Shown in pieces: positions 4,061 through 49,416 of a stretch of DNA of 64,000 bases (position 1 is its first letter; every line of letters begins with the position of its first letter). Source of the DNA: Candidatus Peribacteria bacterium (GTDB taxonomy: Bacteria > Patescibacteriota > Gracilibacteria > Peribacterales > Peribacteraceae); the NCBI GenBank assembly GCA_016866875.1, contig VGKY01000003.1, positions 32,708 through 96,707 of the forward strand, given 5' to 3'. The notes below the pieces were generated by a model. That model worked only from the letters and a program-made list of their open reading frames with translations, was not told where the DNA came from and did no database searches. Position numbers and translations under genes: made by a program.

Positions 4061-4816
4061 TTACCGCATAGGAGTTGCCTTATCCCTCCATTTCCAAAAG
4101 TACTTCATAGCGCTCAGGAGATGCGCGCGCCCTACGCGAGTACCAAGAAGCGAGAATACCCCACCCTCGCTCAATCGACGCTGACGATCGGCAACGGCAA
4201 CGGTTGGATAGTAGTGCACACGCTTTCCCCGCAACCAACAGCGCCGGCAGAGATCTATGTCTTCGAAGAAGAGAAAGAAACGATGGTCAAACCCGCCGAG
4301 GTCTTCAAAGAAGGCTCGCCGCATGAGTACACAACCCCCCGCCACCCAATCGGTATCGCGCTCCTGATCGGGGCTGATGTCGGACTGGAGATAGCGCTGC
4401 ACACGATGGGGAAAGAGCCTTCCGAGAACGGTGCGATTGGCAATCACGTCTATGGGTAGAGGAAAACGCCGGGCGGAGAAGCGCGCCGACCCATCTGGAA
4501 ACTGGAGCTTCGGTGCAAGGATGCCAATGTCTGGCTCTGCCTCCATCTTCCCCACCAATGTCTCCACTGCCGAAGGCGGGAGCATCTTCACGGGATTGTT
4601 GATGAGGATATAGGTGCCACAGGCGACGCGTGCACCCGCAGCATACCCACCACCAAATCCGAGATTGCGTGACGTCTCAACGATCTTCACCCGGGAATCT
4701 CCCGGCAACTGCCTTCGCAAGATCCCGATGCTGTCGGTGTCGGAGTGGTTGTCGACGACGATGACCTCCAGCCGGTCACCGATGGTCTGGGCAAGCAGCG
4801 CCCGGACACATGCCAA
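4061..4816 (-). CDS. Family 2 glycosyltransferase
   Basis: A GT2 enzyme of the rhamnosyl/WcaA-like group: LEVIVVDNHSDTDS (nucleotide-binding strand), SRNLGFGGGYAAGARVA, DWVAGGCVLMRR and FFLFFEDIDLCRR. It would transfer a sugar from an NDP donor to a surface polysaccharide. The annotated TTG start loses the first beta strand. In-frame codons upstream read PIVSAIVLSYRSPRDTLACV, the missing GT2 N-terminus, but between that and the upstream stop there is no ATG/GTG/TTG; ATT at 4868-4870 is the nearest candidate. The usual DxD region reads INNPVKM, without the canonical aspartates, so activity is uncertain. Heptamer repeats fill the divergent gap with uvrC. Confidence 0.8.
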   Translation of the reverse strand: MACVRALLAQTIGDRLEVIVVDNHSDTDSIGILRRQLPGDSRVKIVETSRNLGFGGGYAAGARVACGTYILINNPVKMLPPSAVETLVGKMEAEPDIGILAPKLQFPDGSARFSARRFPLPIDVIANRTVLGRLFPHRVQRYLQSDISPDQERDTDWVAGGCVLMRRAFFEDLGGFDHRFFLFFEDIDLCRRCWLRGKRVHYYPTVAVADRQRRLSEGGVFSLLGTRVGRAHLLSAMKYFWKWRDKATPMR

Positions 4817-4869
4817 TGTGTCGCGTGGACTGCGATAGCTCAGAACGATGGCGGAGACGATGGGCTGAA

Positions 4870-4952
4870 TACAAGGAGAAGGTAGAAAGTAGCAAGGAGC
4901 AGTGCCATGATTGTATGCGTAGCTACATGCTACCTGCTACCTACTACTTTCG
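4870..4952. repeat. Heptanucleotide-period repeat between GT2 and uvrC
   Basis: Units related to CTACNTN repeat with a 7-base period on both sides of the divergent promoter gap (for example GCTACAT, GCTACCT, GCTACCT, ACTACTT in 4921-4950). The repeat runs into the first codons of uvrC (MLPATYY) and probably into the start region of the GT2 gene. Confidence 0.6.
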
Positions 4953-7086
4953 CTGTTTGGACAATCCACACCTCCCCTCCCTTCGCAAACGCATCGCCAA
5001 GGCTCCGACATCGTCAGGGGTCTATCGCTGGAAAAACAGCAAGGGCGAGGTGCTGTACGTCGGCAAAGCGGTGAACCTCCGGGAGCGCCTGAGGAACTAC
5101 GTCGCGACAAAGGCAGATAAAGGTCTCGGACCATGGAAGCTTGCCCTGAGAAATCACCTTGCGGACGTTGACTGGACCCTGACGAATTCCGAGCTCGAGG
5201 CACTCATCCTTGAAACGAACCTCATCAAGGAAATCCGTCCGCGCTACAACGTGATGATGAAGGACGACAAAAATCACGTGTACGTCGAAGTGACGGTGAG
5301 CGACCCCTGCCCATCCATCGATGTCGTGCGGCAGATGAGCAATGCCAAGGCACGCTACTTCGGCCCCTTTCTCACCGCGTGGGAAGTGCGCCGCAGCCTG
5401 GAACTCTTGCAGCTGCTCCTGAGTTTCCAAGCATGCAAACGGGGACTGGAGAGATGCAATAAAGAAGCTCATCGCTCGCTATCCGCTACAAACCCTCCGA
5501 AGCCCTGTCTCGAGTACCAAATCGGCAAATGCAACGGACTCTGCATTGGCGCACTCACTCCCGAGGAATACTGCAAGCGCATCGATGCCGTCATGGATTT
5601 TTTCAAGGGCAACCGTGGAGCAGTTGCCATGAAAGCGCGCGAACTCATGGCACAGGCTGCTCAGGAAAAAAAGTTTGAGCGTGCAGGAAAACTCCGTGAT
5701 GCCCTTGCGTTCATTGAGCACCAGAAAGAGGGACAGATCGTCTCCGACCCGCACGGCAAAGACCTCGACATCATCGGTATCGCTCTCAGTACCGCACGGG
5801 CGCAGGCGGTTGCGCTCCGTGTCCGCGACGGCAAGCTCATCGGCGAACAGCTCTACCCGCTCATCGGGCAGCCAGAGAGCGTCACCGAGGCACTCACGGG
5901 ATTTCTTCCGCAGTACATAGAAGTGCAGACGTCCCTGCCCGCTGCACTCATCGTCCCGGAAGAATTTCCGGATCGCACGCTACTGGCCAAGCTTGCTACG
6001 GAGCGCACGGGGCGAAGGGTAGACATCATCGTCCCCGAACGTGGGAAGAAATCGCATCTCCTGGAACTCGCGATGCACAACGCCGAGGAGAAGCTCCGGG
6101 CGCAGGAAACCGCATGGGAGAGCGCTGCACGCAATCTTGAAGATGCGCTCAAAGAGCTGCAGGAAGCCCTCGCTCTTCCCTCTCCTCCCAAGCGGATCGA
6201 AGGCTACGACATCTCGCACCTCGGCGGAACCGAAACGGTCGGCAGCATGGTGGTAATGCAGAGCGGCAAGCCAGCGAACAAAGAATACCGATCGTTCACA
6301 TTGCGCACCGTACGGGAAGGAGAGATCGACGACTACAAATCCCTACGGGAAGTACTGCGCCGAAGACTGCGGCACCTTGTCGACGAACGAAAGCAGTGGG
6401 AGGAAAAGGGAGTGACAATCGGCAAAGCTCTCAAGAAAGACCGGGCAACCATCGCAACGATGCTCCCATGCGAAAACAGCAAGGAGCTCGCCTGCATCGT
6501 GGCACGGGAAAATGATCACCTCTGCGGCTGCGGCAGACTTGTAGAACTCGAGAACAAGGTCATCGCACTCGAGCCTTTGTGGATTGCCGAGGAATACCAA
6601 AAAGAGCGCCTGTGGTTCACGCTCGCACGATCGCTCCTCTCGACGCTGAAGAAAGGCAAGATCTACGCTGTAGCAACGCCGGAAACCCATGACGCACTCA
6701 ACGAGGTAGGCTTCCTGGATATCGATCATCCGCCGCCATGCATCAAGCACATGGGCAAAGCTACATCCATCCCGATGATGATGGAAGCACAGCGAAGCAA
6801 GCCCGACGCATCGCTCTGCGAGCGCCCCGACCTGCTCGTCATCGATGGAGGCAAGGGGCAGCTCAGCGCCGCACGCGATGCGATGCAGATCATCGGCATA
6901 GAACTGCCTGTTCTTGGCCTAGCCAAAAAACAAGAGGAGATCTTTGTACGGGGGAAAAAAGACCCCCTGATCCTTCCACAGGAATCCCCTGCAAAGTATC
7001 TCCTGATGCGACTGAGAGACGAAGCACACCGATGTAGTAACGCGCACAGAGAAAAGAGACTGAAGCGCAGAGTGCTGGGTGCGTGA
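4927..7086 (+). CDS. uvrC: UvrABC excinuclease subunit C with inserted GNAT-like segment
   Basis: UvrC makes the dual incisions in nucleotide excision repair. The GIY-YIG nuclease is clear (SGVYRWKNSKGEVLYVGKA), as are the Cys-rich loop (CLEYQIGKCNGLC), the UVR motif (EKKFERAGKLRDALAFIE) and the RNase H-like domain (EGYDISHLGG, DDYKSLREVL, DLLVIDGGKGQLSAA). Between the last two sits about 140 extra residues (about 490-630) resembling an N-acetyltransferase fold. The C-terminal HhH pair is missing: the protein stops soon after LRDEAHR. I use the ATG at 4927; an upstream extension to 4810 overlaps the GT2 gene and is not UvrC-like. Expected to work with UvrA/UvrB encoded elsewhere. Confidence 0.93.
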   Translation: MLPATYYFRCLDNPHLPSLRKRIAKAPTSSGVYRWKNSKGEVLYVGKAVNLRERLRNYVATKADKGLGPWKLALRNHLADVDWTLTNSELEALILETNLIKEIRPRYNVMMKDDKNHVYVEVTVSDPCPSIDVVRQMSNAKARYFGPFLTAWEVRRSLELLQLLLSFQACKRGLERCNKEAHRSLSATNPPKPCLEYQIGKCNGLCIGALTPEEYCKRIDAVMDFFKGNRGAVAMKARELMAQAAQEKKFERAGKLRDALAFIEHQKEGQIVSDPHGKDLDIIGIALSTARAQAVALRVRDGKLIGEQLYPLIGQPESVTEALTGFLPQYIEVQTSLPAALIVPEEFPDRTLLAKLATERTGRRVDIIVPERGKKSHLLELAMHNAEEKLRAQETAWESAARNLEDALKELQEALALPSPPKRIEGYDISHLGGTETVGSMVVMQSGKPANKEYRSFTLRTVREGEIDDYKSLREVLRRRLRHLVDERKQWEEKGVTIGKALKKDRATIATMLPCENSKELACIVARENDHLCGCGRLVELENKVIALEPLWIAEEYQKERLWFTLARSLLSTLKKGKIYAVATPETHDALNEVGFLDIDHPPPCIKHMGKATSIPMMMEAQRSKPDASLCERPDLLVIDGGKGQLSAARDAMQIIGIELPVLGLAKKQEEIFVRGKKDPLILPQESPAKYLLMRLRDEAHRCSNAHREKRLKRRVLGA

Positions 7087-7732: not shown

Positions 7733-7807
7733 GGCCCCATCGTCTATCGGCTAGGACACCTGGTTCTCATCCAGGAAAGCGGAGTTCGATTCTCCGTGGG
7801 GCTGCCA
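7733..7807 (+). tRNA. tRNA-Glu (anticodon CTC)
   Basis: A full cloverleaf can be drawn. The acceptor stem pairs 7733-7739 with 7797-7803. The anticodon arm has stem CCTGG/CCAGG and loop TTCTCAT, giving anticodon CTC. The T arm is CGGAG-TTCGATT-CTCCG. The discriminator is G7804 and the CCA end is encoded (7805-7807). The D-arm GTCTATCGGCTAGGAC is also Glu-like. Two truncated gene pieces lie immediately downstream, which fits tRNA 3' ends being common recombination sites. Confidence 0.95.
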
Positions 7808-7909: not shown

Positions 7910-8173
7910 TCACACCCTCGCCATCTTCCACCCAAGCTCCAGTTGGCGATTGGAGACGGCCCAACGGTCGATCGCAGGGCTCACGGTCGCTGCGAGAAAG
8001 ATGTTTCCCAGGAGGTGCTTCACGGTAAATGGGATCTGGCCAATGAATGCCTCCCGCATCGAGCCTCCAAAGAGCACAGGACCGAGGAGGACCCCCGTGA
8101 GAAGATCGAAGAAAATCGTGGCTGCGATCGCGAAGAGCACGTAGTGCCACCACTGCCCTTTGGCGTGCCGCAA
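7910..8173 (-). CDS. Small multi-pass membrane protein, probably 5'-truncated
   Basis: The frame encodes a hydrophobic protein (QWWHYVLFAIAATIFFDLLT, then GQIPFTVKHLLGNIFLAAT) with about three membrane helices. The helix pattern and IPFTVKHLLGNIF motif resemble small DUF6580-type integral membrane proteins, but I am not certain. The only in-window start is a TTG at 8173. The same frame continues upstream as more hydrophobic sequence (VATSAVVIIGSAAQILRHAK) with no usable start, so the N-terminus looks lost. It overlaps, tail to tail on the other strand, a second truncated frame beginning around 8160-8193. Confidence 0.5.
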   Translation of the reverse strand: MRHAKGQWWHYVLFAIAATIFFDLLTGVLLGPVLFGGSMREAFIGQIPFTVKHLLGNIFLAATVSPAIDRWAVSNRQLELGWKMARV

Positions 8174-8192: not shown

Positions 8193-8402
8193 ATGATGAC
8201 GACTGCTGACGTTGCTACGGTGGCTGCACACTACAAGCAGGTATTCACGGCAGCAGGATGGACGATGGGTGACTCAATGGAAGGAGGGGGTACATCGATC
8301 CTGCAAGCCAAGAAAGGAAGTCAGGATGCCGCTGTGATGATCGCAGGAGCAGCAGGACAGACCTCTATCACCATCGGGATCAGCGAGACAGACGAGGAAT
8401 AG
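8193..8402 (+). pseudogene. Truncated C-terminal domain of a lipoprotein-like gene
   Basis: The frame reads MMTTADVATVAAHYKQVFTA..., then AAGWTMGDSMEGGGTSILQ, and ends TSITIGISETDEE. This resembles the C-terminal YK-x-L-x-x-x-GW domain of small secreted proteins, where a strand-helix is followed by four beta strands. Nothing like the usual signal peptide or N-terminal half precedes it; the upstream DNA belongs to the oppositely oriented membrane-protein fragment. It therefore looks like the surviving 3' end of a gene cut by recombination next to tRNA-Glu. A short functional protein starting at 8160 or 8193 cannot be excluded. Confidence 0.45.
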
Positions 8403-8431
8403 CACGCGCTCTAGAGGTGCGCTTTGCACAT

Positions 8432-8461
8432 AAAGAGAGACCCGTCCGAGGAGCGGACGGG
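8432..8461 (-). terminator. Intrinsic terminator of candidate small RNA
   Basis: A perfect 7-bp GC stem CCCGTCC/GGACGGG (8441-8461) is followed in minus-strand sense by TCTCTCTTT. Confidence 0.65.
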
Positions 8462-8585
8462 CAACCCTCCTCCCTGCATCAAGTGAGTGAGTACAGGGCG
8501 GGCTGTTGTCTCTTCCGAGAAGCTCGCTGCGTGGTGCCATGCAGCATCGAGTGTCGGGCACTCAAGCTCCACACAAAAAGAGACT
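8432..8585 (-). ncRNA. Candidate structured small RNA (novel)
   Basis: On the minus strand a promoter (8592-8619) is followed at the predicted start site by GTCTCTT (8578-8584), which pairs with AAGAGAC (8508-8514). This stem encloses two hairpins: TTGAGTG/CACTCGA (8548-8565) and GCTGC/GCAGC (8526-8545). A third hairpin CCCTG/CAGGG (8472-8498) and a strong intrinsic terminator (8432-8461) follow. The transcript would be about 150 nt. The size and terminator could suit a 6S-like or regulatory RNA, but I recognise no known family. An overlapping ORF on this strand (to 8734) runs through the terminator stem and looks spurious. Confidence 0.4.
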
Positions 8586-8591
8586 AGGAGC

Positions 8592-8619
8592 ATCATAGGG
8601 AAAAGCACCGAATTGTAAA
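8592..8619 (-). promoter_or_regulatory. Promoter of candidate small RNA
   Basis: Minus-strand TTTACA (8614-8619) and TATGAT (8592-8597), each one mismatch from consensus, are spaced by 16 bases. The predicted start is near 8585, exactly at the 5' strand of the first stem. Confidence 0.5.
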
Positions 8620-8702: not shown

Positions 8703-9686
8703 ATGGACATCCAGCGCACAGCGGCGGCGATCATGGCGGATCCTCATGCAAAGGAGGCAAGCCTGCGGCAGATGAACATGCCGTGGTTCATGACGCCATT
8801 TTTTCCCACGCTTGTTCAAGAGTCTCACCTCAGTGATGCCGATCGCGCGCTCGTTGAAGCATTTGCCCAAGACGGGTACGTGGTAGTCGATGCAGAGATT
8901 CCCAATCGCGATGCACTGATAGCACAGATGGTTGCCACACTGCATCCGATGTTCCGGGGTAGCAACCGGATTCAGGATGCATGGAAGGACAATGCAAACG
9001 CGAAGACCCTTGCGACACTGCCGCACATCGACCGCATCTTGCGGCTGCTCTACCAGCGAGACCCCATCCCCTTTCAGACCCTCAACTTCGCCCACGGCAC
9101 AGAGCAGCACACGCACAGCGACACGATCCATTTTCACTGCATCCCCCATCACTTCATGTGCGGTGTGTGGATCGCACTGGAAGACATCGATACCTCGTGC
9201 GGCCCACTCCACGTCTACCCGGGCAGTCACAAGATGCCCGCCTGGGACTTCCATGATCTCGGGCTCCCCTCCGGCAGGGAGTCCTATGCGCGCTACGAAG
9301 ACTGTATGCAGGCCTACGTGGAAGCAACCGGCATGCGCAAGCACATCGTGACCATGAAGAAAGGGCAAGCAGCGATCTGGGCGGCCACTCTGCTCCACGG
9401 TGGTGAGAGCATTACCGATGCGTCACGCACACGCCACAGCCAAGTGACGCACTACTATTTTGAGAATTGCCTCTACTACACGCCGATGCACTCCGATCCC
9501 TACATCGGAAAAATGCACCTGCGAAATATCACCGATATCCGTACGGGGCAACTTGTCCCCAATCGTTATGCAGGGAAAACCATCAGCGCCATCCCCGAGC
9601 CAGTGAGTCCTGTGCAGAGCGCTACCCTGGCCTCGAAGCATGTACTAAAAAGACTGCTGGCAAGAGCGAAGAAGACGCTGCAGTGA
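8703..9686 (+). CDS. Phytanoyl-CoA dioxygenase (PhyH) family oxygenase
   Basis: A 327-residue Fe(II)/2-oxoglutarate-type oxygenase. The double-stranded beta-helix carries HTHSDTIHF (His and Asp iron ligands of the HxD type), GVWIALEDIDTSCGPLHVYP (a PhyH signature) and a distal His in LLHGGESI. The substrate cannot be inferred; bacterial PhyH proteins hydroxylate lipids, amino acids or small metabolites. There is no signal peptide, so it is cytoplasmic. A TATACT hexamer about 14 bases before the ATG suggests a very short leader. Confidence 0.85.
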   Translation: MDIQRTAAAIMADPHAKEASLRQMNMPWFMTPFFPTLVQESHLSDADRALVEAFAQDGYVVVDAEIPNRDALIAQMVATLHPMFRGSNRIQDAWKDNANAKTLATLPHIDRILRLLYQRDPIPFQTLNFAHGTEQHTHSDTIHFHCIPHHFMCGVWIALEDIDTSCGPLHVYPGSHKMPAWDFHDLGLPSGRESYARYEDCMQAYVEATGMRKHIVTMKKGQAAIWAATLLHGGESITDASRTRHSQVTHYYFENCLYYTPMHSDPYIGKMHLRNITDIRTGQLVPNRYAGKTISAIPEPVSPVQSATLASKHVLKRLLARAKKTLQ

Positions 9687-10379: not shown

Positions 10380-11570
10380 CTACGCTACCCACAGCAGCAA
10401 ACTCTTGAGATACTCCGTCTCGGGATGGAAAAGGTTCACAGGATGGTCAATAGCGAGTCGGTGGCGCTGCAGGATCCGGACAGATCGCTTCGCCTGGCGT
10501 GCTGCAGTGAAGACGACGGTTTGAAAGGTCTCGGTATCCATCTGGTACGAACAGGAGCATGTCAGAAGCAGTCCCCCGCTCTCGGGAAGTGCTTGCATGC
10601 CGAGACGGTTGAGATCGGCGTACGCCTTCTTTGCGGGCTCGAGATCTGCGCTGCGCTTTGCAAACGCCGGCGGGTCGAGGATCACAAAATCGTAGGCGCG
10701 GGGCTTGGGGGAGCGCCGGAGAAAGTGAAAGACATCTTCGGGATAGGTCGCGAAGCGAGAGAGATCGACGCCATTCATCGCCATGTGTGTTTGCGCAGTC
10801 TCCAGTGCAGCCTTGTCATAGTCGACGGCATCGGCCGCTGCAGCTCCTCCGAGGAGGGCGGCGAGCGAAAATCCCCCAACGTAACTGCAGCAATCGAGCA
10901 CCGTGCGATCTTTGGCCAGAGAGCGAACGAGCGATCGCATCTCGCGCTGATCGAGAAAGAGTCCTGTTTTCTGACTTCCCGAAAGTGAAATCAAGAATTG
11001 CATGCCACGCTCGGTCACGGGAACCTCCGTATCGCCTCCGCCCGCGATCCACCCTTCCCTCTCGGGCAATCCCTCTTTCTTGCGCGCACTCCCGCCGGAT
11101 TTTTCGTAGATCCCCGTCGGCGAGCACGCTTCTCGCAGTACGGCGATAACGGCATCGCGCATGCGATCCATGCCGAGAGTAGTGAACTGCACCGCAAGCA
11201 CCGATCCGTAGCGATCGACGATGAGTCCGGGGATGCCGTCGCCTTCGGCGTTGATCAGGCGGTAAGCCGTCGTATCTTCACGGGAGAAGAACGGATCTCG
11301 CAAAGCGACGGACTGCCGGATATTGTTTTGCAATGCATCCAGTGGATCGCCCTCGGTAAAGGAAATCGCTCTTCCGCAGATGTAGGCCTTGCTGTTCCAG
11401 TGCGCAAAGCAGAGGAAATCCCCCTTGGAACTCCGCACCTCGACGATGGCGCCATCCTCACAGGCGGGCGGTCGATCTACCGCCGAACGGAAGATCGCGT
11501 GGTGACGGTTGCGCAGGTGAACATCAGCCGCAGGTTTGAGAGTAATGATGGGGTAGGAAGCCATGAGCAT
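10380..11570 (-). CDS. rlmI: 23S rRNA (cytosine-C5) methyltransferase, RlmI family
   Basis: About 394-396 residues. The N-terminal PUA-like domain begins ITLKPAADVHLRNRHHAIF (typical of the RlmI PUA start). The central EEHD-like region has INAEGDGIPGLIVDRYG. The C-terminal Rossmann methyltransferase shows TGLFLDQREMR, VLDCCSYVGGFSLAALLGGA (SAM motif I) and the catalytic motif ILDPPAFAKR, plus TCSCSYQM. E. coli RlmI makes m5C1962 in 23S rRNA. Starts at 11570 and 11564 are both possible. A 30-bp palindrome sits immediately upstream. Confidence 0.9.
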   Translation of the reverse strand: MLMASYPIITLKPAADVHLRNRHHAIFRSAVDRPPACEDGAIVEVRSSKGDFLCFAHWNSKAYICGRAISFTEGDPLDALQNNIRQSVALRDPFFSREDTTAYRLINAEGDGIPGLIVDRYGSVLAVQFTTLGMDRMRDAVIAVLREACSPTGIYEKSGGSARKKEGLPEREGWIAGGGDTEVPVTERGMQFLISLSGSQKTGLFLDQREMRSLVRSLAKDRTVLDCCSYVGGFSLAALLGGAAAADAVDYDKAALETAQTHMAMNGVDLSRFATYPEDVFHFLRRSPKPRAYDFVILDPPAFAKRSADLEPAKKAYADLNRLGMQALPESGGLLLTCSCSYQMDTETFQTVVFTAARQAKRSVRILQRHRLAIDHPVNLFHPETEYLKSLLLWVA

Positions 11571-11573
11571 TAC

Positions 11574-11603
11574 CGTAGCGGAGGTTCATGAACCTCCGCT
11601 ACG
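11574..11603. repeat. 30-bp perfect palindrome, copy 1
   Basis: Left arm CGTAGCGGAGGTTCA, right arm its exact complement TGAACCTCCGCTACG. It is related to copies at 30709-30738 and 43349-43380, with paired substitutions preserving self-complementarity. It marks the 3' limit of the IS30 remnant. Confidence 0.9.
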
Positions 11604-11914
11604 AAATCTTTCTGGAATGCTTCCCGCGCACCCCGTGTCATCGCCTCCGCGGTTTGATCTGATAGGAGGGCTGCACGGAGCAGTTTGGACTTCCGCTCGA
11701 CGAAGATGGCAATGGCAGACACACCTACCACGAGATCGCTCTCCCAGTCGCCGTACCGCCGCCTGCTCTCCACCACCATCGGACGATCATCGATGGAACG
11801 ACGATGGGGAATCTTCGTGTGTCTGCGTCCGTCGGGAGCGCCGTACCACTTGCGCTTCTTCCCACGATTGCGGAGCTGCCTGTAGAGCTCCCCTTTCTCT
11901 ATGAAGCTCTTCTC
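11604..11914 (-). pseudogene. IS30-family transposase remnant
   Basis: The minus-strand frame reads EKSFIEKGELYRQLRNRGKK, then DGRRHTKIPHRRSIDDRP, SRRRYGDWESDLVVGVSA and IAIFVERKSKLLRAALLS. This is the middle of an IS30 transposase: the conserved R.SID.RP and GDWE.D motifs with the first catalytic Asp region. Two consecutive in-frame TGA codons lie just upstream and the frame runs into the palindrome downstream, so the N-terminal HTH and the C-terminal catalytic Glu part are both missing. It is an inactive fragment of roughly 100 codons. No IS ends or target duplication are visible. Confidence 0.8.
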
Positions 11915-12033
11915 TCATCAGAAAAGTATTAATGCCTTCGCGGAACTCTGCGTGTATTACAGCACGCTCCTCCTGCAAAGCTCCGGACAGATGGCTGCGC
12001 TGCTTCCGTAATAGCGTCAATTTGGATGGAAAC

Positions 12034-13077: not shown

Positions 13078-13265
13078 GGGCCTGCCTGCCGGTAGGCAGG
13101 GGTGAAGGGGAAGGCCCTGCTTTGCGCCGCAGCGCTGTCGAGAGGGAAACGCCGAATCCTTGGAGGCGTTTCCTGCGAGACACAGGGCCGGGCGGAGGGG
13201 TGTTGGCGCGCGGAGAGTTTTTCTTTCCCCCTTTCTTTTGTCTGGCTGACAAAAGAAAGGGGGAA
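13078..13265. repeat. Structured ~190-nt repeat element, copy A
   Basis: Nearly the same sequence occurs at 23073-23258. Shared blocks are GGGCCTGCCTGCCGGTAGGC, CGCCGCAGCGC, GGAAACGCC...GGCGTTTCC and a terminal hairpin CTTTCTTTTGTC/GACAAAAGAAAG. In this copy the final stem is extended by TTTCCCC/GGGGAAA. It lies between the convergent PRMT-like gene and rlmH and holds no gene. Confidence 0.85.
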
Positions 13266-13286
13266 ACCAACTACGCATCTCGCTTC

Positions 13287-13751: not shown

Positions 13752-13777
13752 AAGGGAATCAATGTTAGCGATGTCAC

Positions 13778-13850
13778 CCTGAGCGTAGTCGAAGGGCAAC
13801 ATCGCGTGTCTATGGTTCGTCCCTCGACTACGCTCGGGATGACAGGCTCA
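13778..13850. repeat. Pair of GTCGAAGG / CCTCGAC-type dispersed elements
   Basis: CCCTGAGCGTAGTCGAAGGG (13778-13797) is followed about 25 bases later by the inverted form CCCTCGACTACGCTCGGGAT. Related copies occur at 33478-33497 and 51258-51283. It fills the gap between rlmH and rlmD. Confidence 0.7.
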
Positions 13851-38291: not shown

Positions 38292-40121
38292 CTATTCCCA
38301 CTCTATCGTTCCCGGCGGCTTATTGGTGAGGTCCAGAAAGACCGCATCGACCCCTGGGAGAGCCATGATCCGCTTGGTCATCGACTGCAGGACTGCCGAA
38401 GGGAGCACATAGGCATTGGCGGTCATGGCATCGGTAGACTCGATCGGACGCAGGACGATGGATTGCCCACCGGGCTTTGTGCCACAGGGGAGAAGTACCA
38501 CAGGGAATTGCCAGATCTTTTCGTAGAGTCCTGCGCGCTGCATTTCGTGGAGCACGACGTCATCGGCTTCCCGAAGCAGATCCGCTCGCTCGCGCGTAAT
38601 CGCACTCGGATGCAGGGAAAATTTCACCGGTGCGGATTGTGAGGTGCAGAGCAACACGCGATTGATCTCTTTGTTGCTGTTGGGGATCTTCGTCGCAAGC
38701 TCGAGAAGATCCTGCGTCACCTCTGCGGGTCGATCGTGGAATACGACAATCGCATGACGATACGTTCGCCCGTCTCCCTGCACACCAACGGACTGCACGG
38801 GTAGCACCATATACGGAGCGTCCTGCGCCAACTGCTCCCTGCTCCCTGCTCCCTGCTCCCTGTTTTTTGCACACAAAATCCTGACGCCAAGCCCCGGCCC
38901 CGGAAACGGATGTCTCCAGACGAGCTCGTGAGGCAGTCCGAGTTCTTCACCGAGGATGCGCACTTCGTCTTTGTAGAGCTCCTTGAGTGGCTCGATGACG
39001 AGCCCCTGATCGATCATCTTCTGAATCGCCTCCACGCGGTTGTGATGGGTTTTGATCTTATCCGCATGCTTCGTGCCCCCTGTCTCAATGGTATCCGGAT
39101 AGATAGTCCCCTGCCCGAGCATCCATTCTCCAGCTTTGAGCTTTGAGCTATGAGCTTTGAGCGCATCAAAAACCCTTCTCTGTACATCGAGAAACGTATT
39201 GCCGATCACCTTCCTCTTCTCCTCCGGATCACACACGCCCTCCAGTTTGCGGAAGAACTCCTCGGACGCTTCTTCGATGTGCAGGTTATTGATACCCAGT
39301 TTTTCAAAGGCCTCTTCTATCATCTTCACTTCGCCTTTACGCATCAGCCCCGTATCCACTAGCAATCCCTGCACGCGGTCAGCACCCAGGACTTTGTTGA
39401 GGAGTGTGAATGCAACCGTGGAGTCCACGCCGCCGGAAACGAGCATGAAGACCTTTCGGTCTCCCACATCTTTTTTGATCTGCTCTCCGACATGATCGGC
39501 ATAACTCTTGATGGACCACTGCGCCGGCTTGCATAGCTTCGCAAACCGCTCCAGCACCTCCATGCCATGCTCGGTATGGGTCACTTCGTTGTGCCACTGG
39601 ATACCGAAGAATCTCCGCTCCGCGTTCATCATCGCGGCGTTGATGCAATCCTTCGTACTCGCTATGCGCACAAATCCCTCCGGCAACTCTGAGACTTCGT
39701 CTCCATGCGACATCCAAACAGTCCACTTCTCCGGAAGACTATCGAACAAATCATTCTTCATTGTTAATTTTTCATTCTTCATTCTCTGCGCCTCGGTACG
39801 TCCATACTCTTTCACCTGCGCAGGGCTCACCTTGCCACCGAGGGTATGTGCCATCCACTGGTGCCCGTAACAAAGTCCCAATACCGGAACGCCGAGATCA
39901 AAAATCCCTGTATCCGCCTGCGGACTCCCCTTCTCGTACACACTCTGCGGGCCGCCGGAGAGGATAATGCCGGCGACTCCTTGTAATGCTTCCGGATCGG
40001 TATCGCACGGATAGATGTACGAAGGATAGCCAAAACGCCGGATGCGGCTTGCGATCAAATGTGCGTACTGTCCTCCGAAGTCCAGTATCGCAATGCTGCC
40101 GGTATGGACGGGGCCTTCCAT
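38292..40121 (-). CDS. guaA: GMP synthase (glutamine-hydrolysing), long form
   Basis: About 609 residues versus about 525 in E. coli. The N-terminal class I amidotransferase has LDFGGQYAHLIASRIR, VLGLCYGHQWMAHTLGG (nucleophile Cys) and GIQWHNEVTHTEHG. The ATP-pyrophosphatase has KVFMLVSGGVDSTVAFTLLN. The C-terminal domain has PFPGPGLGVRILCAKN, then an extra lobe (VQSVGVQGDGRTYRHAIVV, IPNSNKEINRVLL) before the usual end SKPPGTIEWE-like TNKPPGTIEWE. The extra lobe matches the insertion seen in eukaryotic GMP synthases. Three heptamer repeats are translated in frame. The track start is a GTG at 40127; I use the ATG at 40121. Confidence 0.95.
   Translation of the reverse strand: MEGPVHTGSIAILDFGGQYAHLIASRIRRFGYPSYIYPCDTDPEALQGVAGIILSGGPQSVYEKGSPQADTGIFDLGVPVLGLCYGHQWMAHTLGGKVSPAQVKEYGRTEAQRMKNEKLTMKNDLFDSLPEKWTVWMSHGDEVSELPEGFVRIASTKDCINAAMMNAERRFFGIQWHNEVTHTEHGMEVLERFAKLCKPAQWSIKSYADHVGEQIKKDVGDRKVFMLVSGGVDSTVAFTLLNKVLGADRVQGLLVDTGLMRKGEVKMIEEAFEKLGINNLHIEEASEEFFRKLEGVCDPEEKRKVIGNTFLDVQRRVFDALKAHSSKLKAGEWMLGQGTIYPDTIETGGTKHADKIKTHHNRVEAIQKMIDQGLVIEPLKELYKDEVRILGEELGLPHELVWRHPFPGPGLGVRILCAKNREQGAGSREQLAQDAPYMVLPVQSVGVQGDGRTYRHAIVVFHDRPAEVTQDLLELATKIPNSNKEINRVLLCTSQSAPVKFSLHPSAITRERADLLREADDVVLHEMQRAGLYEKIWQFPVVLLPCGTKPGGQSIVLRPIESTDAMTANAYVLPSAVLQSMTKRIMALPGVDAVFLDLTNKPPGTIEWE
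38832..38862. repeat. CTCCCTG heptamer repeat inside guaA
   Basis: Four tandem CTCCCTG units encode REQGAGSREQ in the GuaA C-terminal domain, in frame. Confidence 0.85.
39132..39163. repeat. AGCTTTG heptamer repeat inside guaA
   Basis: Units AGCTTTG, AGCTTTG, AGCTATG, AGCTTTG encode LKAHSSKLKAG just before the conserved QGTIYPD motif, in frame. Confidence 0.85.
39750..39786. repeat. ATTCTTC heptamer repeat inside guaA
   Basis: Units of the ATTCTTC family encode MKNEKLTMKND in the amidotransferase domain, at the variable loop before VWMSHGDEV. Confidence 0.85.
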
Positions 40122-40176
40122 GGGCACAGCTTAGCGTGGCAGGCGGGGAATTGACAAAATTTGCGGGCAATGGAGA

Positions 40177-40623
40177 ATGGGCATCCATATGACACTGCGT
40201 GAAGAGATCGAATCCAAGTTACATACATGTAATCAAGTATTGAGTGGTATCGTCAACCGCCTGTACACAAGTCGCGATCTCGCCAGCGCAGCAAAAGAGG
40301 CGGACACATTCAAGAAGGATACACTCGCGCTAATCGCTACGGTCATAGACAAACGACGTGAGGAGCTTGCGCAGACCATAGAACCCAAAGAGCTTGTAAA
40401 ACTTGCTCCGGAGGATTTCCTCCTTCAAAGAGTGGTAGTAACCCAGCAACTCACTTCCGTCTTTCGTACGGCGATGCATCGGCCTCCAAACTTTGCGCAC
40501 AATAATCGCATCATCGAGCCGATTGCCTGCGCGCAGCAGCTCCTGCAAGCAGCTCTGAAACGCATTCCAGAGGACCCCTCCGATCCACTCATGGATTCAA
40601 CGGATGTGTTTGACGTGGAGTAA
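40177..40623 (+). CDS. Hypothetical helical protein
   Basis: A 148-residue protein of unknown family, predicted almost entirely helical (TLREEIESKLHTCNQVLSGI, RELAQTIEPKELVKLAPEDF). There is no signal peptide or cofactor motif. An ATG at 40189 is an alternative start. Its last 35 bases overlap the 3' end of the convergent O-antigen-ligase-like gene. It is separated from the divergent guaA by a short gap. Supported by coding-like composition and position only. Confidence 0.55.
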   Translation: MGIHMTLREEIESKLHTCNQVLSGIVNRLYTSRDLASAAKEADTFKKDTLALIATVIDKRREELAQTIEPKELVKLAPEDFLLQRVVVTQQLTSVFRTAMHRPPNFAHNNRIIEPIACAQQLLQAALKRIPEDPSDPLMDSTDVFDVE

Positions 40624-41950
40624 GCACGACTGCCAAAAGAATCCACACTGTATACGCAACGGCGCTGTCTTCCCATGCATGGAGGAAGAGAGCAGCGATG
40701 GAGATACCGAGGAACATGAGAAAAGCTGACAGCTGACAGCTGACAGCTGCCAGCTTCTTAAGGATAAGGACAACAAATCCCAAATACAGTACAAAGCCTA
40801 TCCATCCAAGCTCGACTCCCATCTGCAAATACCAGTTCTCGGGAAGCAGCGGGCACTGACAGCTCTGACCCGCAGGTTGCACCTGAACACCTCCGACAAA
40901 CACGCAGAGATCCGGATGCGCAGAGGCCCACGATGCATCGGAACCCGATGGTAACTCCACGCAGGTATCACTGAAGCGATTGCTCGCGGGACCGGCCGTG
41001 CCAAGCCCGAGTCCCCAAGGATGTTCTTTCATAGTCATGAGCGCCTGCAACGGGCGCTCGATGTGACCGGCCGACGAGGTTGCTCTCAGTATGACGTGGG
41101 GGAATGCTACAACGGCAATAGTTGCGAGAAGGAGCAGGAAGCAGGTGGCAAGGAGTACATGCTTCCGAGGAAGATGCTTCCATGCAATGATTGCGCTAAC
41201 GACTGCGGCTGCAATCCATGCGGAGCGGGAAAAGGAAAAGACAATGGCAATAAGGAAGCTGAAAGCTGAAAGCTGAAAGCTGAAAGCTTTTCCCCGAAAC
41301 GCCATAGTGAGTGCAAGACTCCATGGTATGAGCATCCACAGTCCCATTTGATTTGGTCCGCTGAATGTGGACTGCATCCTGCGAATCCCGATACTTTCAA
41401 TCTGCTGAAAGGCCGCAAGGGGGCCACCGGGAACATACAAGGAATGACGATCGCTGTAGCCAAGCCAGGTGAACCACGACATCGGCAGGAACATCGTAGC
41501 CATGCCGTACACAGCGACGATCACCCCCGCCCCCAGCAGTACCGCTCCTCCAGAACTGATGAATGATGATGACCATGGAACGCGGCGAAGCACGAGGAAG
41601 GCGACGAGCGGAAGGAAGTCGTATTTGAAACCGAAGGCGTAATGGGGAATGGAGAATGATGAATGGAGAATGATGAATTGTATGAGTGACCACAGCACTA
41701 ACCCCAATATGCAGAGATCCAAAACATCCATTCTTAATTCTTCATTCTTCATTCTTAATTTCGCTGTCCATTCCACCACCGCAATGAGCAAGATCACCCC
41801 AAGGAGTGCCTCTTTCCAAAGCGCCAGTATGGGAAGCGGCGCACTCCCCGGCCCCGCGATCAGTTTCGTGAGAACCGAGACAAGGAATGCATGAAACGGA
41901 AGGGCTGCAATGAGCACCAGAACCAGCCGTTCGCGCGTTCTTTGTAGCAT
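40589..41950 (-). CDS. O-antigen ligase/polymerase-like membrane protein
   Basis: About 453 residues with ten or more hydrophobic helices. It has the large periplasmic loop typical of WaaL/Wzy proteins between ERPLQALMTMKEHPWGLGLG and NWYLQMGVELGWIGFVLYLG, plus SGPNQMGLWMLIPW. The motif HPWGLGLGT followed by NWYLQ matches the O-antigen ligase (PF04932) pattern. It would join or polymerise lipid-linked glycans at the outer face of the membrane. Four heptamer repeats are translated in frame (peptides LRMKNEELRM, ILHSSFSIPHY, FSFQLSAFSF, AVSCQLSAF), mostly next to membrane helices. Confidence 0.82.
   Translation of the reverse strand: MLQRTRERLVLVLIAALPFHAFLVSVLTKLIAGPGSAPLPILALWKEALLGVILLIAVVEWTAKLRMKNEELRMDVLDLCILGLVLWSLIQFIILHSSFSIPHYAFGFKYDFLPLVAFLVLRRVPWSSSFISSGGAVLLGAGVIVAVYGMATMFLPMSWFTWLGYSDRHSLYVPGGPLAAFQQIESIGIRRMQSTFSGPNQMGLWMLIPWSLALTMAFRGKAFSFQLSAFSFLIAIVFSFSRSAWIAAAVVSAIIAWKHLPRKHVLLATCFLLLLATIAVVAFPHVILRATSSAGHIERPLQALMTMKEHPWGLGLGTAGPASNRFSDTCVELPSGSDASWASAHPDLCVFVGGVQVQPAGQSCQCPLLPENWYLQMGVELGWIGFVLYLGFVVLILKKLAAVSCQLSAFLMFLGISIAALFLHAWEDSAVAYTVWILLAVVLTPRQTHPLNP
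40721..40756. repeat. AGCTGAC heptamer repeat inside O-antigen-ligase-like gene
   Basis: Four to five AGCTGAC units encode AAVSCQLSAF in frame. Confidence 0.8.
41256..41288. repeat. AGCTGAA heptamer repeat inside O-antigen-ligase-like gene
   Basis: Four AGCTGAA units encode FSFQLSAFSF within a membrane helix. Confidence 0.8.
41643..41680. repeat. GAGAATG/ATGAATG heptamer repeat inside O-antigen-ligase-like gene
   Basis: Five 7-base units encode IILHSSFSIPHY; a second block at 41726-41762 (ATTCTTC units) encodes LRMKNEELRM. Confidence 0.75.
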
Positions 41951-41984
41951 GCTTTGGAATTGTCATCCTGAGTCCGTGCTCGGG

Positions 41985-43340
41985 TCAATTGCCCATTCCC
42001 AATCGAGTGACATCGTCACGGAACACCTCTCCCTGTGAGAGGACATTCTCCACGACATCAATGCACTTCTTCCTGACCTTCTCCCCATAGAGCTTCGGCG
42101 CTTTGCGCATCTCTTTGTTGTCCCACGCAAACTCGATCATTTGCTTGATGAGCGAAGCATCCACGGGAGGTGCAATGAGATTACCTCCGGCCATCGCAGA
42201 CTCTGACCGGTCGGACCCGAACCGGAGCGTGACGCAGGGAACACCGAGCACATTCATTTCCTCCTGCATCGATCCACTATCGGTCGCACACACAGCAGCC
42301 TTACTCATGGCTGCAATGACATCGCCGTACTCGGACCATACATCGCTCAAGACGAAGTTCTTGTGATCCTTCGCAAGGGTCTCCAATTCCTGCTGCAGTC
42401 CGAATTTTTCGAGAGCCATCTTGGTCTGGTTCATATTGATGAGTAGCACGTTGCGTCCTTCGAGAATCAACCCCTTCATCGCGTCGTAGATCGCACGGAA
42501 GCGCTTTTCCGAAACACAGTTCTCCCTGCGGTGGATGCAGAACCGCACGAAGTCACCATCTGCTAGCAAAGGATATTGCTCAAAAATTTTTACCCTTCCT
42601 GCCTTTCCTGCCCTTTCTGCCTTCTCGAGTGCCTCCATCGTCGCATCCACCACGGAATTCCCGACAACAAAGATTCTGTCTTCGGAAAATCCTTCACTGA
42701 GCATGAACTCCCGATCAAGCTCCACCGGAGCAAGGTGGATTCCCGTTGCCGCCTCACTGCAGCGCGTATTGAACTGCTCGGGATACGGCTCCTGTGAACC
42801 GCTCGACCAGTTGTTCCGATTCATGAGGAAGTTCCTCCAAGCATGTGCGTCGAAGCTCTGAGAAGGCTCAAAGCTTAAAGCTGATAGCTTATAGCTCGGA
42901 GTCAGCGTCCGTATCCCCGCCTCGACGTGCACCGAGGAAAACATATGACAAAACCCAGCATTGCTCGCAGCCATTGCCGTCGTCGTATCGCCGTGGACAT
43001 AGGGGATGACAACCTTGCCGCGCTTTTTCCATTCACCGATGACATACCCGAGCCTCCCAATGATCTGACTCACGACCTCATGCATAGCCCCGCGGACATT
43101 GAGATTGAAATCCGGCTCCACGCCAAACTCCTTGAGCATGCCTCCGGAGAGATTTTCGTCGTAGTGCTGGCCAGTATGTCCAAGGACGACACAGTGACCG
43201 CGCTGCTTCAGCTCGAGGTACAGCGGAATCTGCTTAATGATATCGGGCTTGGTTGCAATGAGGATAACGTGAACGTGTCGATCCTTGTGGGATGCGATTT
43301 CTTCGATGAGTTTCGCCGAGCGGTAGGTGATTTCTTGCAT
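41985..43340 (-). CDS. wecB: UDP-N-acetylglucosamine 2-epimerase
   Basis: A 451-residue GT-B-fold epimerase, longer than the usual 370-390. It has VVLGHTGQHYDENLSGGMLK, GYVIGEWKKRGKVVIPYVHG, HVEAGIRTL (conserved Glu), FCIHRRENCVSEKRFRAIYD, and a C-terminal UDP site CATDSGSMQEEMNVLGVPCV with LRFGSDRSES. It converts UDP-GlcNAc to UDP-ManNAc, the donor that WecG/TagA-type transferases use. Two translated repeats are present: a heptamer block at about 42866-42900 (SYKLSALSFEPSQSF) just after IRTLTP, and a nonamer block at about 42590-42630 (KAERAGKAGR). Confidence 0.9.
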   Translation of the reverse strand: MQEITYRSAKLIEEIASHKDRHVHVILIATKPDIIKQIPLYLELKQRGHCVVLGHTGQHYDENLSGGMLKEFGVEPDFNLNVRGAMHEVVSQIIGRLGYVIGEWKKRGKVVIPYVHGDTTTAMAASNAGFCHMFSSVHVEAGIRTLTPSYKLSALSFEPSQSFDAHAWRNFLMNRNNWSSGSQEPYPEQFNTRCSEAATGIHLAPVELDREFMLSEGFSEDRIFVVGNSVVDATMEALEKAERAGKAGRVKIFEQYPLLADGDFVRFCIHRRENCVSEKRFRAIYDAMKGLILEGRNVLLINMNQTKMALEKFGLQQELETLAKDHKNFVLSDVWSEYGDVIAAMSKAAVCATDSGSMQEEMNVLGVPCVTLRFGSDRSESAMAGGNLIAPPVDASLIKQMIEFAWDNKEMRKAPKLYGEKVRKKCIDVVENVLSQGEVFRDDVTRLGMGN

Positions 43341-43348
43341 TGGTACTA

Positions 43349-43380
43349 CCGTAGCGGAGATTCATGAATCTCCGCTACGG
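43349..43380. repeat. Perfect palindrome, copy 3 (32 bp)
   Basis: Left arm CCGTAGCGGAGATTCA, right arm TGAATCTCCGCTACGG. It lies between gpmA and wecB, both leftward, so it is not confined to gene ends facing each other. Confidence 0.9.
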
Positions 43381-43401
43381 AGTTGATGCGGATAATTCTT
43401 G

Positions 43402-44043
43402 TTATTTCAACACCGTTCCCTTCACCACCATGCCGGGGACTTCGCGTACCTCTTTCTCGGTCACTCTTTCGCCCGCAAAAGTATAGACATAGGGTACGGA
43501 ACAAAAGATCTCCATCACCGCTGCTTCATTGGGCTGCATCCCGTCAAGATTTTTTATGATGGGACGGAGGCTGTTACCGTGAGCGACGATGAGCACGTTC
43601 TTGCCCGCGGCAAGAAGTGGCAACACGTACTCCTTGAAAAACGGCCACGTGCGGCGCTCGCAGTCTTCGATGCTCTCCCCGCCCGGCGGACGCGTGGAAT
43701 AGCTCCTGCGCCAGAGCTTCACCTGTTCCTCTCCGAATTTTTTGATGGTCTCACCCTTATTGAGCCCCTGCAGATCTCCATAGTGACGTTCATTCAACGC
43801 AGAATCCGCAACAGGAGATATCGGTGACTGGCCGTGGCCTTCTACGAATGCTGTGTACGTATCGACGGATCGCTTCAGGCGCGAGACGAACACTACATCG
43901 AAGTGAACATCCTTCATGCTCTTTCCCGCAAGCACCGCATCGGCTCTTCCCGCAGATGTGAGACCGACGTCCGTCCAACCCGTGAAGCGATTTTCGAGGT
44001 TCCACTGCGATTGGCCGTGACGAAGGAGAACGAGCATGCTCAT
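43402..44043 (-). CDS. gpmA: 2,3-bisphosphoglycerate-dependent phosphoglycerate mutase
   Basis: A 213-residue histidine-phosphatase-superfamily enzyme. It has LVLLRHGQSQWNLENRFTGW (phospho-His), ALNERHYGDLQGLNKGETIK, RPPGGESIEDCERRTWPFF and VLIVAHGNSLRPIIKNLDGM (second His). It interconverts 3- and 2-phosphoglycerate in glycolysis. It is slightly shorter than E. coli GpmA, lacking part of the C-terminal tail. A hairpin terminator lies just upstream at 44083-44109. Confidence 0.94.
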   Translation of the reverse strand: MSMLVLLRHGQSQWNLENRFTGWTDVGLTSAGRADAVLAGKSMKDVHFDVVFVSRLKRSVDTYTAFVEGHGQSPISPVADSALNERHYGDLQGLNKGETIKKFGEEQVKLWRRSYSTRPPGGESIEDCERRTWPFFKEYVLPLLAAGKNVLIVAHGNSLRPIIKNLDGMQPNEAAVMEIFCSVPYVYTFAGERVTEKEVREVPGMVVKGTVLK

Positions 44044-44082
44044 GGCACAATGGTAACAGAATCCGCTGACGCAGGATCACAA

Positions 44083-44109
44083 AAATGCCGCAGGATCGCT
44101 GCGGCATTT
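44083..44109. terminator. Strong hairpin (possible bidirectional terminator)
   Basis: An 11-bp stem AAATGCCGCAG/CTGCGGCATTT has a 5-base loop. The flanking A and T bases would give a U-tract in either direction. It lies upstream of gpmA, in the gap before the 105-residue gene. Confidence 0.6.
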
Positions 44110-44406
44110 CCTGGAGTCAGAAAGGAGTATTCCTGCTGGCAAGCAAGCTTCACGTAGACATTCGTCGCGTTGTAGCAGACATCAATGCGAGAGCTGTAGA
44201 GAGAAGGGAAATGCGCGTACGCATGGAAGTGAGGGGGAAAGTTTGTATTAAAATGTATATTTATTACAATTGATCAAGTATTGCTTTTGCAGAATTTTAA
44301 AGCACTTTAAGGGTAATGTACGCACAACGCAGACTGCTCCTCTGCACCATGGCTCACAACAGGTGTACCGGGGCATGCGGTCGATGCATACTGTGACATA
44401 GCACTC
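44110..44406. other. Gene-poor gap upstream of small membrane protein
   Basis: About 300 bases, AT-rich in the middle (GTATTAAAATGTATATTTAT). A frame of 62 codons (to 44273) exists but has no recognisable features, so I do not call it. No RNA gene or clear promoter pair is visible. Confidence 0.4.
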
Positions 44407-44724
44407 ATGGACATCCGTGACATCTCCAGACACCGGTACAGCCACACCATGCTCTGGGCGGTGCTGCTCTCTTCGCTCGTCATCGCGATCGCAGCGACAC
44501 TCGGTCGCGCCGTGGCCAATGTAAAAGCTGCACTCATAGACAAGCCCGATATCGCCGTGTACTTGCTCCTCAAAGACGAGGGCATCACACACTCCGTGCT
44601 CCTCAGGAGCAGTGCAGGCCAGCGCGACTACCTCGTGCAAACGAAAACCGGCCCTAAAGTGGTAAAGCTCAAAATGGGAGAGAAGGAATGGTACGTCAGC
44701 AATATCGACACGATGCATGAATGA
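44407..44724 (+). CDS. Small single-pass membrane protein, hypothetical
   Basis: A 105-residue protein. One N-terminal membrane helix (MLWAVLLSSLVIAIAATLGR) is followed by a small outside domain (DIAVYLLLKDEGITHSVLLR, YLVQTKTGPKVVKLKMGEKE) with four short beta strands. I do not recognise the family. It ends 22 bases from the convergent WecG-like gene. Confidence 0.6.
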   Translation: MDIRDISRHRYSHTMLWAVLLSSLVIAIAATLGRAVANVKAALIDKPDIAVYLLLKDEGITHSVLLRSSAGQRDYLVQTKTGPKVVKLKMGEKEWYVSNIDTMHE

Positions 44725-44746
44725 GAGAAAAAGTGCGATTCTGCCA

Positions 44747-45478
44747 TTAGTGACGTTCTGTTTTGGTTATAACGAGAAACGGAAACACAATCGTTGCATG
44801 GATCATGCGCTTCCATCTCTGCGGCTCTTTACAGAGTCTCCACAGCCACTCCAGTCCCATGTGCTGCATCCACTTCGGAGCACGGGTGATGCGACCGGAG
44901 AGAAAATCGAATGTGCCCCCGACGCCTATGGCAACGCGCACGCACGGCATCTTCGAAAAATGCTTCGCAATCCAGAGATCCTGCTGAGGTGCTCCATAGG
45001 CAACGAGGAGCAAGTGCGCCCCTGAGGAATTCACGCGCTGTATGATGTCCTCAGCATCGGCATCGCGCGGTGATCCCTCATAGGTACCAACAATTCTTAA
45101 TTCTGCATTCTTCATTCCTAATTTGTCTCTTGCCCTCTCTCCTACACCACCCCTCCCCCCCAAGAAAAACACGGGAACGTTCTGATCGAGCTTCCCGCAC
45201 AACTGCTCTACAAAATCGACTCCGCTCACGCGCTCAGCAATCTCCTGCCCCACCCACCTCGCCGCCCGCAGGATCCCCACGCTGTCCGGGAGGTTCAGTG
45301 TCGCCGATTGCATCACGGCACGAAATGCGGGATTCCTCTGCCCCTCCACGAGCATCTCGCTATTTGGGGTCATTACATGATGTTGCCCCGCACTCTTCAA
45401 CATGTTCCCCACTCGAAGAACCGCTTCGTTCATCATCACAGCGTCAATCGGTACACCAAGGATGCGCACGCGTTCCAT
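44747..45478 (-). CDS. wecG: WecG/TagA/CpsF-family glycosyltransferase
   Basis: About 243 residues (GT26). It has ILGVPIDAVMMNEAVLRVGN, HHVMTPNSEMLVEGQRNP, NLPDSVGILRAARWVGQEIA (conserved Asp), SGVDFVEQLC, VFFLGGRGGVGERARDKLG and LLLVAYGAPQQDLWIAKHF plus GVGGTFDFLSGRITRAPKWM. Members transfer ManNAc(A) to a lipid-linked GlcNAc, which fits the WecB encoded nearby. A heptamer repeat at 45090-45125 encodes LGMKNAELRIV in frame. Starts at 45478 and 45487 are equally plausible. Confidence 0.88.
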   Translation of the reverse strand: MERVRILGVPIDAVMMNEAVLRVGNMLKSAGQHHVMTPNSEMLVEGQRNPAFRAVMQSATLNLPDSVGILRAARWVGQEIAERVSGVDFVEQLCGKLDQNVPVFFLGGRGGVGERARDKLGMKNAELRIVGTYEGSPRDADAEDIIQRVNSSGAHLLLVAYGAPQQDLWIAKHFSKMPCVRVAIGVGGTFDFLSGRITRAPKWMQHMGLEWLWRLCKEPQRWKRMIHATIVFPFLVITKTERH

Positions 45479-45490
45479 ACGTTGCATCTT

Positions 45491-45526
45491 CCATTTTCCA
45501 TGTTCAATTTTCAATTCTTCAATCCG
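45491..45526. repeat. TCCATTT/TCAATTT heptamer repeat
   Basis: Units TCCATTT, TCCATGT, TCAATTT, TCAATTC, TTCAATC lie in the divergent gap between the WecG-like gene and the Cys-rich protein gene. Confidence 0.6.
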
Positions 45527-45530
45527 GAAA

Positions 45531-46073
45531 ATGAGTCCTATTGCATTCCCGAGAGAAGGTGAGGAAAATCCCTCCATGGCACGCATCCCCGAGGGATTCG
45601 GATACATCGCGGCGTACCTTGGCGGAGTCGCCACCCTCCTCGTGCTGCAAGCGCTGCAGCCGCAGACGAAGGTCGTGGTAGTCCCCGGAGCAGCCAATAT
45701 TTTGGCGAGACCTACGGCAAACCTGCAGCAGAGACAGCCCGCTCAAGTGCCCCTGCCACACCCAGCAGCAGATCCCGCTCCCGCCATCCCAGCTCCTGAG
45801 CCTGCTCCTGCTTCGGCACCTGTCGCAGAACCTGCACCAACCACACAACCCTCCTCTCCTCCAGCCCCTGCCTGTAGCAGAGACGAGGATTGCACAAGCC
45901 CAACGTCCTTCTGCGCTATCCGCTTTGGCGTTTGCCAAGAACTTGCGAAACCGACCTGCGCCTGTCAGGGGGCCAAGACACTCGTGTGCACCGATGCCGC
46001 CCGAAGAATGAAGAGCACAGCCTGCGCAAAAGGATGCGTAAGTCTGCCGAGCGGGGGACAGTGCGTAGAGTAA
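45531..46073 (+). CDS. Membrane-anchored Cys-rich protein
   Basis: About 180 residues. An N-terminal membrane helix (IAAYLGGVATLLVLQALQPQ) is followed by a Pro/Ala-rich linker of about 60 residues. The C-terminal domain carries at least nine cysteines (CSRDEDCTSPTSFCAIRFGV, CACQGAKTLVCTDAARR, ACAKGCVSLPSGGQC). The C-x5-C-x7-C-x6-C spacing is reminiscent of Dickkopf-N-like or knottin folds held by disulfides outside the cell. The adjacent DsbA-like lipoprotein could oxidise it (inference). An ATG at 45576 is an alternative start. Confidence 0.65.
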   Translation: MSPIAFPREGEENPSMARIPEGFGYIAAYLGGVATLLVLQALQPQTKVVVVPGAANILARPTANLQQRQPAQVPLPHPAADPAPAIPAPEPAPASAPVAEPAPTTQPSSPPAPACSRDEDCTSPTSFCAIRFGVCQELAKPTCACQGAKTLVCTDAARRMKSTACAKGCVSLPSGGQCVE

Positions 46074-46133
46074 GGAGCGACTCCCATTTTCCTTGGCGTC
46101 GGATTTGGTGTTGGCGTTAGGATGCTCTTGATC

Positions 46134-46838: not shown

Positions 46839-46839
46839 T

Positions 46840-46868
46840 TGACCATATTGAGAAAAATACTTATAATG
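46840..46868 (+). promoter_or_regulatory. Near-consensus sigma70 promoter
   Basis: TTGACC (46840-46845), 17-base spacer, TATAAT (46863-46868). It is the best promoter seen in the window. It begins just after the DsbA-like stop and drives the 121-residue unknown gene with a leader of about 80 bases. Confidence 0.8.
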
Positions 46869-46957
46869 ATAATTAGTTCCTTGTTCAGTCGGCTCTAACT
46901 TCTGTGCCATGCGGCGCAACCGTCTCAACCTGGAAACGCATTTGAAGGAGGCCCATC

Positions 46958-47323: not shown

Positions 47324-47343
47324 CCAGCTCTGCTGGCAACCGT

Positions 47344-47373
47344 CCGTGCCCCTCTGGGGCACGGATAGTTTTT
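47344..47373 (+). terminator. Intrinsic terminator
   Basis: A 9-bp stem CCGTGCCCC/GGGGCACGG with a TCT loop is followed by ATAGTTTTT. An extra small hairpin GCCAGC/GCTGGC precedes it at the stop codon. Confidence 0.85.
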
Positions 47374-47390
47374 GCATTGCGAAGAGAAAG

Positions 47391-47510
47391 ATTATTGCAT
47401 GTCGTCCTTCGATACGCCGCGCTGTGTCACTCTGAGTAGTCCAGCACCTTTTCACGAAAAGGTGCTGGGCGTATCGAGGAGCGACCAGCGCAGCTACTCA
47501 GGATGACATG
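47391..47510. repeat. Nested inverted repeat with CTCAGGATGACATG end
   Basis: Arms CCAGCACCTTTTC/GAAAAGGTGCTGG are nested inside GATACGCC/GGCGTATC, flanked by CTGAGTAG and CTACTCAG. The end sequence TCAGGATGACA resembles a second site at about 41960 (TGTCATCCTGA). No gene is seen here. Confidence 0.6.
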
Positions 47511-47776: not shown

Positions 47777-47784
47777 CGCGGATA

Positions 47785-48521: not shown

Positions 48522-48524
48522 GCG

Positions 48525-49415: not shown

Positions 49416-49416
49416 G

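Follow-up and report, generated by a model that had tools for sequence, protein, structure and literature searches.

A candidate small structured RNA gene shared by two species of one Peribacteria genus

The locus and its transcription signals

The DNA analysed here (64,000 nucleotides, hereafter the window) belongs to contig 3 of the 1.12-Mb genome of a Candidatus Peribacteria bacterium, an uncultured lake bacterium. Judged by its PhyH-like gene, the closest named relative is Candidatus Peribacteria bacterium MaH-04nov19-177 (genome G001). The candidate RNA sits on the minus strand between the remnant of a lipoprotein-like gene and a gene for a PhyH-family dioxygenase (Table 1). Of the lipoprotein-like gene, the C-terminal ~70 residues are left when it is compared with its relative in genome G004 (57% over 70 aa). 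A sequence-only reading of the locus had placed the candidate next to tRNA-Glu and truncated genes; truncation of the plus-strand neighbour was indeed borne out, whereas the tRNA-Glu gene (7733-7807) in fact lies ~620 nt away. Between 7910 and 8402, two opposed genes abut at ~8205, each apparently without its 5' part, as if one deletion had taken both starts. In G001, a gene for a DUF7672 membrane protein (locus L019:2876-3124) is found between the PhyH-like gene and the RNA, and it is missing from that place in the window.

Elsewhere in the window, the UvrC frame (4810-7086, plus strand) contains a GNAT acetyltransferase-like segment (PF00583, above cut-off) at about residues 556-621, splitting the RNase H endonuclease domain; on visual comparison, an insert occupies the equivalent place in the UvrC frames of the G001 and G004 loci. 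Within 38832-50679 there are eight short tandem arrays, all built of 7-nt units but differing in unit sequence (CTGCTCC, AGCTTTG, AAGCTGA and others). A perfect 11-bp palindrome at 11574-11603 falls within 11570-12020, where the fragments beside it are presumably reminiscent of an IS30-type transposase; a Pfam search with these fragments gave no match.

Table 1 Features of the candidate RNA locus (window coordinates)
Feature	Position	Strand	Remarks
Candidate structured RNA gene	8430-8586	-	5' end predicted at ~8586, 3' end at ~8430; fold z about -4
Sigma-70-type promoter	8592-8619	-	TTTACA (8619-8614), 16-nt spacer, TATGAT (8597-8592); 10/12 matches
Predicted closing stem P1	8508-8584	-	8584-8577 with 8515-8508, continued by 8570-8564 with 8525-8519; from the fold
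Predicted hairpin GAGUGCCCGACACUC inside P1	8549-8563	-	From the fold; this genome only
Conserved hairpin GCUGC-AUGGCACCAC-GCAGC	8526-8545	-	10-nt loop (8540-8531) identical in both genomes; two stem pairs compensated
Predicted third hairpin (CCCUG...CAGGG)	8469-8501	-	From the fold; homologue has a hairpin at the equivalent place with another stem, ACUUNNUGCA in common
Intrinsic terminator-like hairpin	8440-8462	-	9 pairs; the pyrimidine tail is weak; compensated at two pairs in the comparison with G001
PhyH-like (phytanoyl-CoA dioxygenase family) gene	8703-9686	+	PF05721, 3.8e-15; in both genomes it points away from the RNA
C-terminal remnant of lipoprotein-like gene	8205-8402	+	Points towards the RNA; G004 has an intact relative
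Small membrane-protein-like frame	7910-8173	-	Downstream of the candidate RNA on the same strand

The sigma-70-type hexamers that had been read upstream of the predicted start are present as described. The claim of an intrinsic terminator with a T-run held in part: the hairpin is there, but the T-run behind it is weak (TCTCTCTTTAT), as is the T-tract of the homologue in G001. Taken alone, the promoter and terminator of the window copy occur near chance frequency. In the 2.4-kb neighbourhood, one promoter was found against 1.1 expected from shuffles and two terminators against 2.3, which is no excess in either case. Over the whole window, a strict terminator definition gave five terminators against 0-2 (mean 0.8) per shuffle, and the promoter and terminator of the candidate are the only ones to stand 60-350 nt apart on one strand, with no such pair in six shuffles.

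The fold and a same-genus homologue

Folding of the 155-nt segment gave a minimum free energy of -69.8 kcal/mol and a z score of -4.2 (-3.6 on repeat), a value of -4.2 being reached by 3 of the 639 minus-strand windows (0.5%) sampled every 100 bases along the window. By part, z was -3.0 for the P1 domain, -2.4 for hairpin 3 and -4.2 for the terminator, and near 0 to +1 for the flanks. The plus-strand reading of the same stretch is partly stable too (z -2.4), as expected of hairpins. In agreement with the arrangement first proposed, the predicted closing stem encloses two hairpins, and a third hairpin and then the terminator come after it, P1 beginning 2 nt past the predicted start. The strongest folds sampled in the window were those covering a perfect 19-bp inverted repeat and a 24-nt CCCTGAGCGTAGTCGAAGG-type inverted repeat (13224-13266 and 13772-13844).

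When a covariance model of the single window copy was run on 94 kb of neighbourhood loci, it revealed a homologue (E 0.012) in one genome of the same genus, G001, where the RNA again lies ahead of the PhyH-like gene and in divergent orientation to it. BLASTN of the candidate against 40 relatives matched only the candidate itself, and family- and class-wide genome searches with the single-sequence model likewise returned the self match only, missing the homologue probably because of stricter filters. Local alignment of the two copies scored 45, against a mean of 26.4 and a maximum of 43 in 1000 shuffles, so that the sequence by itself supports homology. The flanks of the RNA are no longer alignable between the two genomes.

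The G001 copy has a 12/12 promoter match (TTGACA-16-TATAAT, L019:3142-3169) with the same 16-nt spacer as in the window, set against 20 sites of 9/12 or better in 128 kb of strand (~1 per 6.4 kb). Both copies begin with TAGTYYCTTTT, 5 nt (window) or 6 nt (G001) past the -10 hexamer. They further have in common the hairpin CUG(C/U)AUGGCACCAC(G/A)CAG, the stretch ACUUNNUGCA and the terminator CCC(GU/AG)CCGCU(C/U)CUCGG(AC/CU)GGG. Folded alone, the G001 copy has at its 5' end a closing stem that corresponds to P1 (z -4.85); this stem appears again when 56 nt of extra upstream sequence is included (z -5.3). The middle is variable: the gap from P1 to the loop hairpin is 18 nt in the window and ~100 nt in G001, where ~100 nt of other hairpins take the place of the GAGUGCCCGACACUC hairpin. 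Of the two hairpins originally described within the closing stem, one is thus conserved in the homologue and the other is not. Comparison of the two sequences shows that the predicted promoter position, the P1 clamp, the invariant loop AUGGCACCAC and the terminator hairpin are conserved, the third hairpin poorly, and that the putative gene is syntenic in two species of one Peribacteria genus.

In a covariance model built from the two copies together (R2), window 8586-8430 and L019:3176-3425 each align over their full length. Once the variable inserts are taken out of the two-sequence alignment, 98.2% of the scored cells are paired. Five compensatory changes are two-sided, one of them in P1a, two in the loop hairpin and two in the terminator, and P1 has several one-sided changes besides. 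When one strand was slid by 1-3 columns as a control, 40-53% of the cells paired and compensation fell to zero; the observed counts were matched by 14 of 500 pair shuffles. The P1 part was placed by hand after insert removal and its counts therefore lean towards structure, whereas the loop-hairpin and terminator parts align unaided; with two members in the family, the covariation comprises five events only. The sequence-only reading had named loss of the stems in relatives as evidence against an RNA gene, and had called for a search for homologues and covariation. This search yielded one syntenic homologue from the same genus, in which the stems are kept with compensatory changes in all three helices and the promoter is in a conserved place. 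Since a second species of the genus keeps the folds with matching base changes, the minus-strand segment very probably represents a real gene for a small structured RNA of a narrowly distributed family.

Distribution and known RNA families

Two of the five genomes of the genus contain the RNA. The other three lack it, and unfiltered searches of the ~4 kb surrounding their PhyH or tRNA-Glu genes did not reveal it either. With R2, and at the sensitivity that it offers, neither 40 relatives nor 353 genomes of the class yielded a further convincing member. The model's weak matches in G023, G014 and G004 (E 0.19-5) were discarded because the loop hairpin is absent from all three loci; of these, only the G023 match was inspected in its surroundings, and it lies across the 3' end of a coding gene and that gene's terminator. 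Weak matches in locus L009 (G003) were judged to be chance. The exact loop-hairpin pattern occurs in 27 viral contigs, in which the full model sees at most an 18-20-nt hairpin, and phage and plasmid searches gave no significant match. As expected from the first reading of the sequence, which had recognised no family, an Rfam/Infernal scan of both copies returned nothing beyond chance matches at E<=10. The absence of an Rfam match and of a third member among the 353 genomes of the class indicates a very narrow distribution.

6S RNA (RF00013), which had been singled out for checking, resembles the candidate in length and in having its own promoter. Its model matched neither copy even at E<=10 and found no match in the candidate's own genome, so that 6S RNA is not indicated. 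Unlike in 6S RNA, the 5' end of the candidate is predicted to pair with the middle of the molecule and not with its 3' end, hairpin 3 and the terminator come after, and no central bubble resembling an open promoter is formed. The candidate has a short GGAA-containing segment near P1, a point of likeness to the bacterial small SRP RNA (RF00169). However, the SRP covariance model did not match it, and its absence from sister species indicates that it is not SRP RNA, which would not be absent there. Across the candidate's own genome and 29 relatives, the SRP model gave no match at E<=1 in 29 of 30 genomes, the exception (E 0.75) being below the cut-off, and it matched 13 of 14 control genomes.

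The closest likeness is to independently transcribed, trans-acting bacterial small RNAs, with which the candidate shares a length of 150-250 nt, a predicted promoter of its own, an intergenic position, an intrinsic terminator-like hairpin, a structured body with a conserved loop predicted to be exposed and a narrow phylogenetic range. For the candidate, a consensus match puts a promoter at the conserved position in both genomes, and the secondary structure is conserved with covariation on two sequences. The candidate differs from such RNAs in its weak U-tract, and neither a chaperone site nor a target was identified for it. In the literature searched, we found nothing on small RNAs of Peribacteria.

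Alternative readings and a proposed mode of action

The near-chance frequency of the promoter and the terminator, together with the truncated genes of the locus, would suit a chance fold in decaying intergenic DNA, with the similarity to G001 as a functionless remnant of shared ancestry. We consider this improbable: the flanks have become unalignable, yet the promoter position, P1, the loop and the terminator align with compensatory changes. A short mRNA, part of which folds, appears similarly unlikely. The loop segment CTG-(C/T)AT-GGC-ACC-AC(G/A)-CAG is readable as L-(H/Y)-G-T-T-Q in a frame that is open in both genomes, in the window over 31 codons that start at a GTG and in G001 over 53 codons that start at an ATG at L019 ~3190, and one of the two differences inside the six shared codons is a synonymous third-position change; this frame is what keeps a small coding role in consideration. 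The peptides of these frames have nothing alike beyond the six codons, however, their lengths differ, and no ribosome-binding site was found upstream. Moreover, the changes keep base pairs, and the compensation in P1 and the terminator falls outside any shared frame. When the other frames were compared with the relatives' loci by tBLASTn, nothing convincing emerged except the PhyH start. The earlier reading saw no sensible ORF in the stretch; between the two genomes, six codons over the loop are shared in frame and nothing else.

A promoter followed by a folded domain and a terminator is also the layout of an attenuator, and the small membrane-protein-like frame follows further along the minus strand, so that a cis-acting leader (riboswitch or attenuator) could be imagined in which the terminator controls this gene. 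It is very unlikely that the candidate acts in this way, as the downstream genes differ between the genomes and lie far beyond the terminator: in the window the gene is ~265 nt past it and seems to have lost its 5' end, the DNA in between runs antisense to a decayed gene, the downstream gene of the homologue is unrelated, and no antiterminator alternative was recognised.

The best explanation as a whole is thus an independently transcribed gene for a small structured RNA, which we regard as reasonably probable with its transcription and regulatory role included. RNA polymerase with sigma-70 would start at ~8586; the ~155-nt transcript would fold co-transcriptionally, with P1 clamping the domain, and would end at the 8462-8440 hairpin. 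More tentatively, the clamped multi-branch domain may display the loop for pairing with a target RNA or for binding a protein, the rest of the domain being free to drift in length. The constancy of promoter position, clamp, loop and terminator, combined with a free interior length, would fit a small RNA with the loop as its working part. Given an RNA gene, such loop-mediated regulation in trans is a possibility that we hold at somewhat under even chances. The exact complement of the 10-nt loop occurs at one other site in the candidate's own genome and at five in G001, none of them orthologous; duplexes between the RNA and the PhyH gene were computed without controls and given no weight. A far more speculative idea, which we think most improbable, is a strongly transcribed, lineage-specific RNA whose loop AUGGCACCAC has a new housekeeping-like function, for example binding the ribosome or RNA polymerase, in Peribacteria without a recognisable SRP RNA.

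To our knowledge, small RNAs have hardly been studied in bacteria of the Candidate Phyla Radiation. The locus described here provides a concrete, testable candidate RNA gene with a defined predicted start and end and an invariant loop, and it suggests that RNA genes can be recovered from raw sequence even where Rfam and an ordinary BLAST search of relatives fail to show them.
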